NCBI GenBank assembly: GCA_028702415.1
Contig: JAQVOT010000008.1
Coordinates: forward strand, 1-15,047
Source of the DNA: Eubacteriales bacterium
Lineage (GTDB): Bacteria; Bacillota; Clostridia; Peptostreptococcales; Anaerovoracaceae
Reading direction: 5' to 3'
Length of the DNA stretch: 15,047 nucleotides
The notes beneath the pieces are model-generated. The model saw only the letters and a list, made by a program, of their open reading frames with translations, had not been told where the DNA came from and searched no databases. Of the stretch, positions 1,831-14,410 are shown piece by piece; positions within the stretch are counted from its first letter, which is position 1; each line of letters begins with the position of its first letter. The position numbers and the translations under genes were made by a program.

Positions 1831-2787
1831 GGATGTAGGTTTATCGCTGATGTCCCAGAGGACTCTGTTAATTCCGGGAACCTCTGCGATTATGCGGTCG
1901 CGGATTCTGCAGAGCATGTCCCAAGGGAGTTCAACGGATTCGGCGGTTACGGCATCAACTGTGTTGACTGCTCTGATAACTGCCGCCCATCCCATGTATC
2001 TCTTGTCATCCTTGATTCCTGTTGATTTAAAATCAGGGATCGCTACGAAGTACTGCCATGGTGCAGGATTCATCTTGTCGATTTCCTCTCTCACGATGGC
2101 ATCTGCTTCTCTTACCGCCTCAAGTCTGTCAGCTGTAATTGCACCAACGCATCTTACTCCCAGGCCCGGCCCCGGGAATGGCTGTCTGTAAACCATGCTG
2201 TCAGGAAGTCCCAGCTGCTTTCCCACAACTCTCACTTCGTCCTTGTAAAGAAGTTTAACAGGTTCTACCAGTTCAAACTGCAGATCTTCCGGAAGTCCAC
2301 CTACGTTGTGGTGTGCTTTAACCCCATCTGATTCCAAAATGTCAGGATAAATTGTTCCCTGTCCCAGGAACTTGATCCCGTCCAGCTTCCCTGCTTCCTC
2401 TGCAAATACATCTATAAATTCCTTGCCTATGATTTTTCTCTTCGTTTCAGGGTCATCAACACCTGCGAGTTTATCAAGGAATCTGTCTACCGCATCAACA
2501 TAAACCAGGTTGGCACCCAGTTCTTCTCTGAATACTTTGACAACCATTTCAGGTTCTCCCTTTCGAAGCAGACCATGATTAACATGAACGCATACCAGCT
2601 GATCACCGATTGCCTTGATCAATAGTGCAGCAACCACTGATGAGTCAACGCCACCTGACAGGGCAAGCAAAACCTTCTCTTGGCCAATCTGTTTTTTGAG
2701 CGCCGCCAGCTGTTCGTCGATGAACGCCTGTGCCAGCTCAGGGCTTGTAATTCTTTCCATTGTTTCCGGTCTTTTGTTTGGATCCAT
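1813..2787 (-). CDS. guaA: GMP synthetase, ATP-pyrophosphatase subunit lacking the glutaminase domain
   Basis: Converts XMP to GMP by adenylating XMP and replacing the adenylate with ammonia. The 324 residues hold the N-type ATP pyrophosphatase P-loop SGGVDSS (44-50), GQGTIYPD (142-149), RQPFPGPGL (201-209) and the typical C-terminal IEWE with the dimerisation domain. Bacterial GuaA is usually about 510-525 residues, with a class I glutamine amidotransferase domain of about 190 residues in front. That domain is absent here, and no coding space upstream could hold it. The protein therefore resembles the separate synthetase subunit of archaeal two-protein GMP synthetases. I choose ATG 2785-2787 because GGAGGT lies seven bases upstream; the ATG at 2802 overlaps that site. 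It probably needs a glutaminase subunit encoded elsewhere, or free ammonia. Confidence 0.93.
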   Translation of the reverse strand: MDPNKRPETMERITSPELAQAFIDEQLAALKKQIGQEKVLLALSGGVDSSVVAALLIKAIGDQLVCVHVNHGLLRKGEPEMVVKVFREELGANLVYVDAVDRFLDKLAGVDDPETKRKIIGKEFIDVFAEEAGKLDGIKFLGQGTIYPDILESDGVKAHHNVGGLPEDLQFELVEPVKLLYKDEVRVVGKQLGLPDSMVYRQPFPGPGLGVRCVGAITADRLEAVREADAIVREEIDKMNPAPWQYFVAIPDFKSTGIKDDKRYMGWAAVIRAVNTVDAVTAESVELPWDMLCRIRDRIIAEVPGINRVLWDISDKPTSTIEWE

Positions 2788-2840
2788 ATCGATTACCTCC
2801 ATCTATATTTAAATACTTTATTTACAAAATTATGAAAAGA

Positions 2841-2849
2841 AGTATAGCA
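2841..2849 (-). promoter_or_regulatory. Extended -10 promoter of guaA
   Basis: On the minus strand, TGCTATACT (2841-2849) is an extended -10 element about 50 bases upstream of the guaA start. No convincing -35 is visible, which is acceptable for an extended -10. The gap to the upstream permease gene is only 85 bp and has no clear terminator. Confidence 0.5.
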
Positions 2850-2872
2850 CAGTATGTCTGCTTTTGCATATA

Positions 2873-3772
2873 CTATTTACTGTACTTTTCAATAAGTGCG
2901 ATGGCGGTAACAGCGGCCATTATGAGAAGGCCTCCCGCGATCTGACTTCCAGTCAGCATGGTGCCGAATATAATCAGTGAAAAGATTACAGTTGTAAGGG
3001 GCAGTACATTCTCGAATGCGGATACAAGCGTTGTGGACAATCTTCCTACCGCATAGATATATCCGAATTCTCCTATTATGATGCAGACGATAGCCGTCGC
3101 GATTGTAATCAGTATACCCGCGGGTGTAAATTCAATCGCTGCGTGGGTTATGGCCTGACTTATGGCTGCAATCGGCAGTTCCACAATCAATCCGGAGAGA
3201 AACAGCCCCGTAAGCAAAGTCAGAAGATCCAGTTTCTCATACAATGGTTTCACGTACACGATATAGAAGGTCCAGACGATTGCCGCAACAAACATCGCCA
3301 CCGTGCCCAGCACGTTGATGCCCATCGGTTCTCCTGAAACCAGCAGGTATACACCCAGTATGGAAATCGCAATGCAAAGGATCTTAAGAGGCGTAATTCT
3401 GTTCCCGAAAAATATCCTGTCTCCGATCATCCCGAAGACCGGTACAGTGGCCATGATCAGTGAAGAAAATGCCGCACCGGTAAGCCCGGTTCCCAGATTT
3501 TCCACGGTAAAATATATGGCCATGCCAACCGCTCCTGAAATGAATACCCGGGGCATATCTTTCTTATTGATATGGATTCCTTTTTTGAATATGAAACAGC
3601 AAACCGTGAGGATGATGCTTCCGATTATAAGTCTGAGCAGGGTGAATATTGCCGGTGACATGTAGTCCATCATGTATTCAATGGCAATAAAATCGAAACC
3701 CCAAAGGAAATTAACTCCAATAATCGCGAGGAGGGGTTTCGCGATTGCTTTGTTTTTCGTTTTTTCTGTCAT
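2873..3772 (-). CDS. EamA/DMT-family permease
   Basis: Inner-membrane transporter of 299 residues with ten hydrophobic helices in two five-helix EamA repeats, typical of the drug/metabolite transporter superfamily (amino-acid or metabolite exporters such as RhaT/YdcZ-like proteins). The first repeat begins LLAIIGVNFLWGFDFIAI and contains the characteristic Pro-Ala-x-x-x-x-x-x-Arg pattern (SPAIFTLLRLIIGS). The second begins around residue 155, after GINVLGTVAMFVAAIVWTFY. The substrate cannot be predicted. The only plausible start, ATG 3770-3772, has no clear Shine-Dalgarno sequence, so translation may be weak. It has its own probable promoter just downstream of copA and is not obviously linked in function to copA or guaA. 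Confidence 0.9.
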   Translation of the reverse strand: MTEKTKNKAIAKPLLAIIGVNFLWGFDFIAIEYMMDYMSPAIFTLLRLIIGSIILTVCCFIFKKGIHINKKDMPRVFISGAVGMAIYFTVENLGTGLTGAAFSSLIMATVPVFGMIGDRIFFGNRITPLKILCIAISILGVYLLVSGEPMGINVLGTVAMFVAAIVWTFYIVYVKPLYEKLDLLTLLTGLFLSGLIVELPIAAISQAITHAAIEFTPAGILITIATAIVCIIIGEFGYIYAVGRLSTTLVSAFENVLPLTTVIFSLIIFGTMLTGSQIAGGLLIMAAVTAIALIEKYSK

Positions 3773-9617: not shown

Positions 9618-11255
<1,638 letters not shown>

Positions 11256-11655: not shown

Positions 11656-11684
11656 AATTTAACGCTATTGCTTCTGTTTGTCAA
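11656..11684 (-). promoter_or_regulatory. Promoter of groES-groEL, overlapping the 3' end of the glycosylase gene
   Basis: On the minus strand TTGACA (11679-11684) and TAAATT (11656-11661) are separated by 17 bases. The -35 and most of the spacer are within the last codons of the upstream glycosylase gene (stop at 11665), so the two genes have no free intergenic space for a separate terminator. Confidence 0.78.
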
Positions 11685-12633
11685 CACCCTTATGCGTAAT
11701 AAAATAAAAAAGATACTGCTGGGCAATTCCTCCGTATGGGGCGAAGTGTTTTCTCGCAAAATCAGACATTCCTTTCATGTCATTTTCCTCAAGTCCGTAC
11801 AGTTCGTGCATGACCCTGCGCATCCAGACATCTACTGGAAAGCTGTCCGCCCTCTGGAGGCAGAACAGGGATACGCAGTTTGCAACTTTGGGGCCCACTC
11901 CTGCAAAATCGGTTAAATCCCTGTTTCGCATTTCTTCTTTTCCCCATTCAATATACTGCTTTGCCGCTTCAATCAGATACTTATCCCTGTACCCGAGCCT
12001 GCACTCTGCCAGATCCGCCAGGCTTGCTTTTGCGAGAACTTCAGCTTCCGGAATGGAAAACGCTTCTGTCCCATCAGCCAGAAAACCCACCCTGTTGCCA
12101 AGGATTCGACTCAGAGAACTTATACATTTTTTTATCCTGGGGATATTGTTGTTCTGGGAAATAATAAAAGAAACCAGGGTTTCCCAAGGGTCCTGATTCA
12201 GAATCCGGATTCCGCCCCCCTGTTTAATCGCCGCCTGCATGACCTCGTCGCCGCGGGACAGCTTTTTCTTGATTTGCCCGTAGTCTCTGTCCAGATCGAA
12301 ATAATGCCGCCAGAATTTTCGGGCCTGGAAAACGGTGCGACCGCCTGTTTCCAGCATACTGTCATATACAGTCAGCCTGCCCTTGGACTCATCGTAATTT
12401 ACCGAAGCGATGCCCCTTCCCACAACCCCCTGCCAGAATGATTTTTGGGGTTCTTGTGAGTTTTGGGGACGATTACGAAATGAGTTTTGGGGACGTGTCC
12501 CGCGACTCATAATAAATGAGTCGCGGGACACGTCCCCAAAACTCATTTTCTCCCAGCGGAAACACTGGCCGCAATCAAATATCTGATCGGGATTAAAATC
12601 TTCTATGTTATTAAATATTATTTTTTTTGCCAT
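11665..12633 (-). CDS. ogg: 8-oxoguanine DNA glycosylase/lyase of the OGG1 type, with an in-frame hairpin insertion
   Basis: Base-excision repair enzyme expected to remove 8-oxoguanine and nick the strand. Recognisable OGG1-type elements in the 322 residues are CGQCFRW (21-27), SQNNNIPRI (159-167), the helix-hairpin-helix GVGPKVANC (245-253) with the Schiff-base Lys249, and PVDVW (266-270) with Asp268. Residues about 30-66 do not belong to the fold: they are low-complexity (RPQNSF, RPQNSQ, EPQKSF) and encoded by a palindromic insertion at 12440-12548 that keeps the frame. The insertion sits between CFRWEK and QGVVGRG, where homologs have only a short turn. ATG 12631-12633 has a poor ribosome site and lies eight bases after the upstream stop, suggesting translational coupling. 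Function may be retained; activity is untested. Confidence 0.9.
   Translation of the reverse strand: MAKKIIFNNIEDFNPDQIFDCGQCFRWEKMSFGDVSRDSFIMSRGTRPQNSFRNRPQNSQEPQKSFWQGVVGRGIASVNYDESKGRLTVYDSMLETGGRTVFQARKFWRHYFDLDRDYGQIKKKLSRGDEVMQAAIKQGGGIRILNQDPWETLVSFIISQNNNIPRIKKCISSLSRILGNRVGFLADGTEAFSIPEAEVLAKASLADLAECRLGYRDKYLIEAAKQYIEWGKEEMRNRDLTDFAGVGPKVANCVSLFCLQRADSFPVDVWMRRVMHELYGLEENDMKGMSDFARKHFAPYGGIAQQYLFYFITHKGVDKQKQ
12478..12548. repeat. REP/MITE-like perfect hairpin inside the glycosylase gene
   Basis: Arms of 33 bases (12478-12510 and 12516-12548) are perfect reverse complements around a 5-base loop (AATAA). The core contains GGGGACGTGTCCC. A partial extra copy, TGAGTTTTGGGGACG, lies at 12457-12471, and TTTTGGGG occurs again at 12443-12450. 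The structure resembles short palindromic mobile repeats (REP or MITE type); the family assignment is inferred, since other genomic copies are not visible. Confidence 0.85.
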
Positions 12634-13707: not shown

Positions 13708-13737
13708 GAATCGAATAAGATACAGAATATAACAAAT

Positions 13738-13765
13738 AACCGTTTCCCATGGAAACGGTTTTTGT
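13738..13765. terminator. Shared terminator between ferredoxin and rex
   Basis: AACCGTTTCC (13738-13747), three bases, then GGAAACGGTT (13751-13760), followed by TTTG on the plus strand. It serves the ferredoxin transcript clearly. In the minus direction the same hairpin follows the rex stop but has only a weak T-rich tail, so it is possibly bidirectional. Confidence 0.85.
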
Positions 13766-14410
13766 TTATTTCTTTTCATCTGCATTTTTACTCATGTGGT
13801 AAGCCAGTGAATGCAAGCTGTCTGTAATATGCACATTCTCAACCGCAACATGAGATGGTGTTTCGATATCTATCGGGGCGAAGTTCCAAAGACCGGTTAC
13901 TCCTGCGAAGCAAAGCTTGTCCGCCGCCTCCTGAGCAGCATCCTTTGTGGTACATATAATACCGATATCGATGTTATTGTCCTCAACGAAGGCGACAATG
14001 TTCTCATAGTCCATGATCTCGATACCGTTTATCTTCTTGCCGATAAGATCTTTTTTGACCTCAAAGATGCCTTTAACAACAAAACCCGTCTTGTAGTAAT
14101 AAGTGTGGTTTACAACTGCCAGCCCCAGATTTCCTGCGCCCACAACTACCATCCTGTAGTCTTTGTCCAGGCCAAGAATAGCACTTATTTCATTGTACAG
14201 ACCTTCAACGCTGTATCCGTAACCCTGCTGACCGAATCCGCCAAAGTTATTGAGATCCTGTCTTATCTGAGATGCGGTATATCCTGTGAGTTCAGAGAAC
14301 TCGTTTGAAGATATCTTGTCAATGCCCTTCTTCCTAAGTTCGTTCAAATATCTTCTATAACGAGGTAACCTCTTAATTACCGCGTTTGAAATTTTTGTGT
14401 GATCTTTCAT
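13766..14410 (-). CDS. rex: Redox-sensing transcriptional repressor Rex
   Basis: Represses fermentation and NADH-consuming genes when NAD+ is high and is released by NADH. The 214 residues have an N-terminal winged helix (SSNEFSELTGYTASQIRQDL), the linker FGGFGQQGYGY typical of Rex, the dinucleotide-binding glycine motif VVVGAGNLG (88-96), and the dimer-swapping C-terminal helix (TDSLHSLAYHM). Length matches the family (about 210-215). ATG 14408-14410 is preceded by AGGTGAT. It starts 15 bases after the ACP stop and probably shares that transcript. I find no clear Rex operator (TTGTGA...TCACAA type) within the window. Confidence 0.96.
   Translation of the reverse strand: MKDHTKISNAVIKRLPRYRRYLNELRKKGIDKISSNEFSELTGYTASQIRQDLNNFGGFGQQGYGYSVEGLYNEISAILGLDKDYRMVVVGAGNLGLAVVNHTYYYKTGFVVKGIFEVKKDLIGKKINGIEIMDYENIVAFVEDNNIDIGIICTTKDAAQEAADKLCFAGVTGLWNFAPIDIETPSHVAVENVHITDSLHSLAYHMSKNADEKK

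Follow-up and report, generated by a model that had tools for sequence, protein, structure and literature searches.

An untagged REP-like family of palindromic repeats with in-frame copies in conserved genes of a Clostridia genome

Tagged REPs are presented by Di Nocera et al. 2013 (PMC3733652), in the sections cited here, as palindromes of 20–40 nt that are mostly extragenic and often form inverted dimers. The same sections report that some REPs are intragenic, including in repair genes of several species where a change of activity has been speculated, and that CGTC REPs are without an associated transposase. CGTC REPs are defined by an unpaired terminal CGTC, an 8–9 bp stem starting with AT, a 4–5 nt loop and a CCA-like tail; the words Firmicutes and Clostridi are absent from the main text of PMC3733652. 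For TnpAREP, how much the GTAG tag counts varies among the groups studied (cited part of PMC8266576). Rickettsia palindromic elements (RPEs) lie in frame in genes and are either ~150 bp long or belong to short CGTC-tagged families (PMC10969869 and PMC3733652, cited parts). In yeast, the arms of inverted repeats are homogenised by template switching (PMC8604942, cited part). In the portions of the literature covered here, accounts of translated palindromes come mainly from Rickettsia, other proteobacteria and Opitutus; no Clostridia case was found described in those portions, and a literature search returned no paper on palindromic repeats of Anaerovoracaceae.

Here a perfect hairpin translated within a DNA repair gene was followed up in a 15,047-nt stretch of DNA (hereafter the window; contig JAQVOT010000008.1 of assembly GCA_028702415.1, from an Eubacteriales bacterium of the Anaerovoracaceae). 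The best reading of the data is that the hairpin belongs to an untagged, REP-like family of mobile palindromes whose copies are tolerated as linker peptides when read inside genes.

The hairpin and the glycosylase gene that carries it

A repeat search of the window located two arms of 33 nt apiece (12478–12510 and 12516–12548) that are 100% complementary and enclose a 5-nt loop, in agreement with a reading made from the sequence alone, which had described a 33-bp-arm hairpin with a 5-base loop and no mismatches. That sequence-only reading had also placed the hairpin in frame and without a stop inside a repair gene, as borne out by the minus-strand ORF at 11665–12633. The hairpin is made of two inverted copies of a 29–31 nt palindromic unit, adjoined by a decayed third unit. 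The features are as follows:

11665–12633, minus strand: OGG1-like 8-oxoguanine DNA glycosylase gene carrying the insert, 322 aa (ORF; Pfam OGG_N and HhH-GPD)
12448–12546, minus strand: approximate inserted segment, residues ~30–62, missing from genus relatives (protein alignments and codon map)
12457–12471, plus strand: decayed half of a third unit, an arm fragment of this family that is likewise in the translated frame (arm match; half-site and fragment search)
12478–12548, no strand assigned: perfect inverted pair (hairpin) of two palindromic units, loop 12511–12515 (repeat search and RNA fold)
12481–12509, plus strand: palindromic unit 1, 29-nt core (unit search)
12517–12545, minus strand: palindromic unit 2, 29-nt core, in inverted orientation and identical in sequence to unit 1

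The earlier account of the insert was thus right about the hairpin and had omitted the decayed unit at 12457–12471, which is also within the inserted DNA. Folded as RNA, the hairpin region reaches a predicted -72.4 kcal/mol, whereas shuffled sequences average -27.6 (z -13); the window gave no Rfam match at the gathering threshold.

The glycosylase ORF matched OGG_N (E 5.1e-24) and HhH-GPD (E 2.4e-11) in Pfam, and the columns G247-P-K-V-A-N-C and F265-P-x-D268 were invariant or nearly so in a 17-row glycosylase alignment. The net excess of the window protein was 32 to 34 residues over 11 genus relatives and 14–33 residues over 16 database homologues (50–64% identity), less than the figure of about 37 added residues put forward earlier; the nearest database homologue has four residues opposite residues 30–66 (37 residues). 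The genus set came from 24 relatives searched, 12 of them without an OGG match and 11 of the remaining 12 aligned; the one left out (L095 from genome G024, 40% identity) has an in-frame stop. The closest named sources of homologues were Bacillota, Clostridia and Lentihominibacter MAGs, Lentihominibacter being a member of the Anaerovoracaceae. Relatives were without the added residues, and a conserved domain at residues 30–62 was thereby ruled out. At this site two of the database homologues have insertions of their own, ~18 and ~23 residues long and unrelated to that of the window protein, and such variation in length fits a tolerant turn.

In the best of five AlphaFold2 models, built from a 17-sequence alignment (mean pLDDT 80.2; others 79.7, 74.5, 60.2 and 55.8), the insert lies between predicted strands 27–31 and 65–71, so that its proposed position between two strands of an OGG1-type glycosylase was retained. 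The pLDDT was <50 at residues 36–61, a low value that is expected where the aligned sequences are mostly gapped and is not proof of disorder. The insert is probably a floppy protein loop at a strand-to-strand turn.

Two further features of the window were recorded. A TGA at 10995–10997 (minus strand) interrupts the groEL frame at what we take to be the glycine position of a conserved motif, and the listed ORF begins downstream; it could be a sequencing error, a polymorphism or a real nonsense change. At 13729–13769, between genes named by ORF reading as ferredoxin and Rex-like, a 19-nt inverted repeat with 84% complementarity and a 3-nt loop is a possible terminator.

The repeat family and its paired units

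Further copies of the palindrome, anticipated from the window, were found in its draft genome (G000; 1.388 Mb, 233 contigs, 89.66% complete). The half-site TGAGTTTTGGGGACG occurred 71 times with ≤1 mismatch against 0 for the reversed control, so the repeat is not due to chance. Allowing up to 7 substitutions, 74 units of 29 nt were counted in 48 clusters, both numbers being lower bounds as the search was confined to regions with a half-site at ≤1 mismatch. The unit is an imperfect palindrome of 29–31 nt, (A)TGAGTTTTGGGGACGTGTCCGAAAACTCA(T), in which the outer arms are followed inwards by a mismatch or a pair, then by an inner stem and finally by the tip ACGTG; the units of the window family are written TGAGTTTTGGGGACGTGTCC. 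Columns 9–15 (GGGACGT) and columns 4, 7, 17 and 19 did not vary across the 74 units, an invariance that is partly built in since the probe spans unit columns 0–14, leaving only the later columns as an unbiased sign.

In 60 relatives, the half-site gave at most one inexact match each; two had a single one-mismatch match, in both cases without the rest of the unit. An exact-pattern scan of genome_contigs returned two single matches, one from a Gemmatimonadetes MAG and one from a Paenibacillus, with the second arm missing, while none was found in a pattern scan of viral_contigs or among plasmids and phages at E 0.01. As far as searched, in collections that may omit records of G000 or of very near relatives, the family is confined to one Clostridia species.

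The impression that the core resembles short REP-type elements held for the general description of REPs, which the family shares in its 74 units of 29 nt, hairpin pairing, many copies, mostly extragenic location and inverted dimers. It did not extend to the tags: GTAG occurred ≤8 nt from an end in only 1 of 74 units on either strand, and CGTC/GACG ≤8 nt from an end in 2 of 74, with CCA ≤4 nt past the end in 18 of 74, so that neither the GTAG nor the CGTC definition of REPs applies; the unit's own GACG sits at the hairpin tip. The family was therefore filed as a REP-like variant outside the GTAG and CGTC superfamilies.

Most adjacent unit pairs (22 of 26) were inverted. Partners were identical in 15 of these 22, a result equalled in none of 20000 reshuffles, whereas units at different loci were on average 2.8 positions apart; the other seven inverted pairs were non-identical, three of them at 2–4 positions. 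Variants private to a locus were common to both partners, such as CACG in L053 and CGTG in the direct pair L059. Four pairs also shared 10–15 nt of outer flank, and the gap between units mostly differed among loci. Extra arm fragments (38 in total) were present ≤80 nt from 24 of the 48 clusters, compared with 1 fragment in 406 background windows, and were placed at 11-nt steps in five clusters. These statistics suggest that the family may grow and be homogenised in place by template switching.

Copies inside conserved genes and in spacers

Ten of the 48 clusters lie in frame inside nine conserved genes:

OGG, in the window: in-frame cluster
Crp/Fnr, L035: in-frame cluster
Pyridine nucleotide-disulfide/dicluster (flavin/Fe-S) oxidoreductase, L038: two internal in-frame clusters
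MurB-PHP linker, L044: in-frame cluster
MobA-like NTP transferase, L046: in-frame cluster
FolC, L048: in-frame cluster
ComEC, L050: in-frame cluster
RlmL, L065: in-frame cluster
ABC exporter, L067: in-frame cluster

A third cluster at the start of the oxidoreductase ORF (a leader copy) was excluded from the count, and this gene was left out of the alignments. In the eight genes aligned to relatives, the copies occupied variable stretches between conserved blocks. The peptide was MSFG/MSFR-like in eight clusters and EFSDTSPKLI in two, and the third reading frame opens with the stop TGA. Apart from the glycosylase, net lengths relative to homologues were +24 to +35 residues for the ABC exporter (vs 9), +34 to +44 for MobA (vs 8), +13 to +23 for Crp (vs 9 database homologues) and +2 to +10 for ComEC (vs 7). 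For the single-unit copies they were -9 to +3 in FolC (vs 9), -3 to +2 in RlmL (vs 9) and -4 to 0 in the MurB-PHP linker (vs 9); with no net length gained, these three look like a replacement of linker codons and not like a simple insertion. The comparison omits a MobA relative (L159) whose frame is without the part before the site and a ComEC protein (P0243) that starts downstream. The latter is 100% identical over 59% of the L050 (G000 contig C138) query and is recorded on contigs of up to 51.7 kb, its start lying downstream of the palindrome; strains may diverge at the repeat in the comEC part upstream of this start.

A repeat-driven fusion of murB to the PHP gene was considered and ruled out, as 21 of 48 other genus genomes matched as one fused frame. 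None of nine aligned fused relatives carries the unit, which is confined to the linker. In most of the non-fused genus genomes, MurB and the PHP-domain protein matched as separate frames.

The remaining 38 clusters lie outside conserved genes, 24 of them between same-strand neighbours and 14 flanked by opposed genes or situated close to a contig end. Pfam scans of the 24 same-strand neighbour pairs (21 informative, with a match for both partners) revealed no split gene. The coding share of the window is 88.8% by gene list, and if ~85% of the genome is coding, the finding of 10 of 48 clusters in genes amounts to a strong depletion.

Spread of the family and comparison with known systems

A REP-associated tyrosine transposase (RAYT), the other element anticipated from the window, was not found in the 89.7%-complete G000. 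The Y1_Tnp domain gave no match there in a search that was positive in 5 of 14 control genomes, nor was there a match to a sibling RAYT-like protein, in a search run without a positive control; a mover for the family is thus one that we infer. Within the genus, Y1_Tnp is present in 14 of 49 genomes, and palindrome-flanked RAYT-like genes occur in sibling species. Three RAYT-like proteins (L113, L114 and L135; 254–279 aa from frames) have genes flanked by palindromes in inverted orientation whose cores are GGGACGGTTC or GGGTCGGTTC; the proteins scored 73.9, 53.0 and 64.0 with the NCBIfam REP-associated tyrosine transposase model, below its cut-off of 80. Exact GGGACGGTTCT cores numbered 40 in sibling G071 and 18 in sibling G003, and the common unit of these two genomes, AATGTGTCAAAGGGACGGTTCTTTTGACACATT, is similar in layout to the window family. 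The RAYT-like gene of G071 (L114) has a copy of that genome's own 33-nt palindrome on either side. The sole Y1_Tnp match of G003 (145 bits, 196-aa frame) was read as IS200-like, so that G003 also carries a repeat without a detected RAYT. Flanking palindromes of this kind were not found at two fragmentary Y1_Tnp regions of G064 (L136 and L137).

Downstream of the RAYT-like gene of G065 (L113, 2242–2464), more palindromes of GGTAGGACCCTACCATAT type were seen, possibly a second repeat family. At L135 (G016 contig C120), the RAYT-like gene and palindromes at 1426–2384 are near a frame listed as minus 2139–3599, its minus-strand positions being counted from the opposite end, which by eye looks like a relative of the unit-carrying oxidoreductase of L038.

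Placement in genes differed between the species. Among 53 exact sibling cores checked (38 from G071, 15 from G003), four regions had a frame >150 aa across the core; all were rejected as intragenic copies, three of the four (L171, L173, L176 and L198) having no Pfam match and L176 a methylase domain that starts 70 residues after the core. In-gene clusters were thus 0 of 43 in the siblings (29 in G071, 14 in G003) against 10 of 48 in G000 (Fisher p 0.0013), a comparison based on exact cores only, on 15 of the 18 from G003 and without the two G071 cores flanking the RAYT-like gene.

Taken jointly, REP-like dispersal, growth in place, loss of gene-breaking copies and tolerance of in-frame linkers account for these observations with a probability that we put at roughly 0.8. 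On this view, the hairpin would be the dimeric form of a REP-like element that is specific to the species and has GGGACGT as its invariant core. A single-strand transposase of RAYT type, since lost or missing from the assembly, most likely carried its copies across the genome as hairpins. The pair and fragment statistics point to a subsequent stage of template switching at the imperfect hairpin, which would yield inverted duplicates, equalised arms and adjoining arm fragments. Gene-breaking copies would be removed by selection. Those that persist would either occupy spacers or lie in frame within variable loops and linkers, where they would encode linker peptides of hydrophilic character (MSFGDVS.DSF / MSRGTRPQNS). 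Such a peptide in the glycosylase would extend the strand-to-strand turn, and the enzyme should still work.

A wider proposal is more tentative, and we rate it somewhat below an even chance. It holds that the genus harbours an untagged Clostridia REP superfamily with a GGGACG core and arms differing among species. Once landed, its copies would use template switching to grow into perfect hairpins and arrays of arms at 11-nt steps; in one species the superfamily would now supply translated linkers across the whole genome, with new peptide loops in at least nine conserved proteins and no visible gene loss.

The strongest competitor appears unlikely. It does without a transposase and lets microhomology repair, or template switching during replication, copy short inverted repeats into new places. 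It would agree with the failure to find a RAYT in G000, with the equalised arms and the fragments at 24 of 48 clusters (11-nt steps in five), and with copies in RlmL, FolC and the MurB-PHP linker that bring no net length, but local copying alone hardly explains the dispersal of a conserved unit with an asymmetric core to 48 places, a sibling family of similar design flanks a RAYT-like gene, and ~10% of G000 is missing from the assembly. Still less probable is that the inserts are selected functional parts, with the mRNA hairpin tuning translation or the peptide tuning the enzyme, as might be suggested by the great stability predicted for the RNA hairpin (-72.4 kcal/mol) and by the REPs in repair genes of several species for which altered activity was speculated (cited sections of PMC3733652); against it stand the nine unrelated genes, variable linkers and low-confidence model region, the use of two different reading frames, and relatives without inserts. 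An artefact of the draft assembly, which could be suspected from its 233 contigs and a few copies close to contig ends, is hardly credible given 48 separate clusters. In addition, the identical OGG protein is recorded on 2 contigs of up to 65726 bases and the Crp protein with its insert on 4 of up to 57887; both maxima exceed the contigs here, so the inserts recur in at least one further assembly.

The untagged REP-like reading gives, in one Clostridia species, nine repeat-carrying genes together with relatives that are without the repeat, and siblings without copies make the seeding of new protein loops by selfish repeats and the origin of perfect hairpins testable.

Compared with the REPs of Di Nocera et al., the family is in the same size class, forms inverted dimers and, like some of them, is found in a repair gene, but has no terminal GTAG or CGTC. 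It resembles RPEs in that in-frame palindromes occur in many unrelated conserved genes (10 clusters, 9 genes here) as tolerated extra peptide, and departs from them, as described, in its untagged 29–31 nt unit, its Clostridia genome and its cis-equalised dimers. The likeness to REPtrons lies in the G071 RAYT-like gene between its own palindromes, with outer arms and a GGGACG core as in the window family; the differences are that no RAYT was found in the window's 89.7%-complete genome and that the arm sequence of G071 is another one. Like the inverted repeats of yeast (PMC8604942) and the coding palindromes of Nematomorpha (PMC6649704), the family has translated inverted repeats whose arms are perfect or equalised; the cited parts of these papers present theirs as local, whereas the window hairpin is a member of a dispersed family. 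Intragenic REPs and Rickettsia palindromic elements are already known, and the window family is a variant of that kind.
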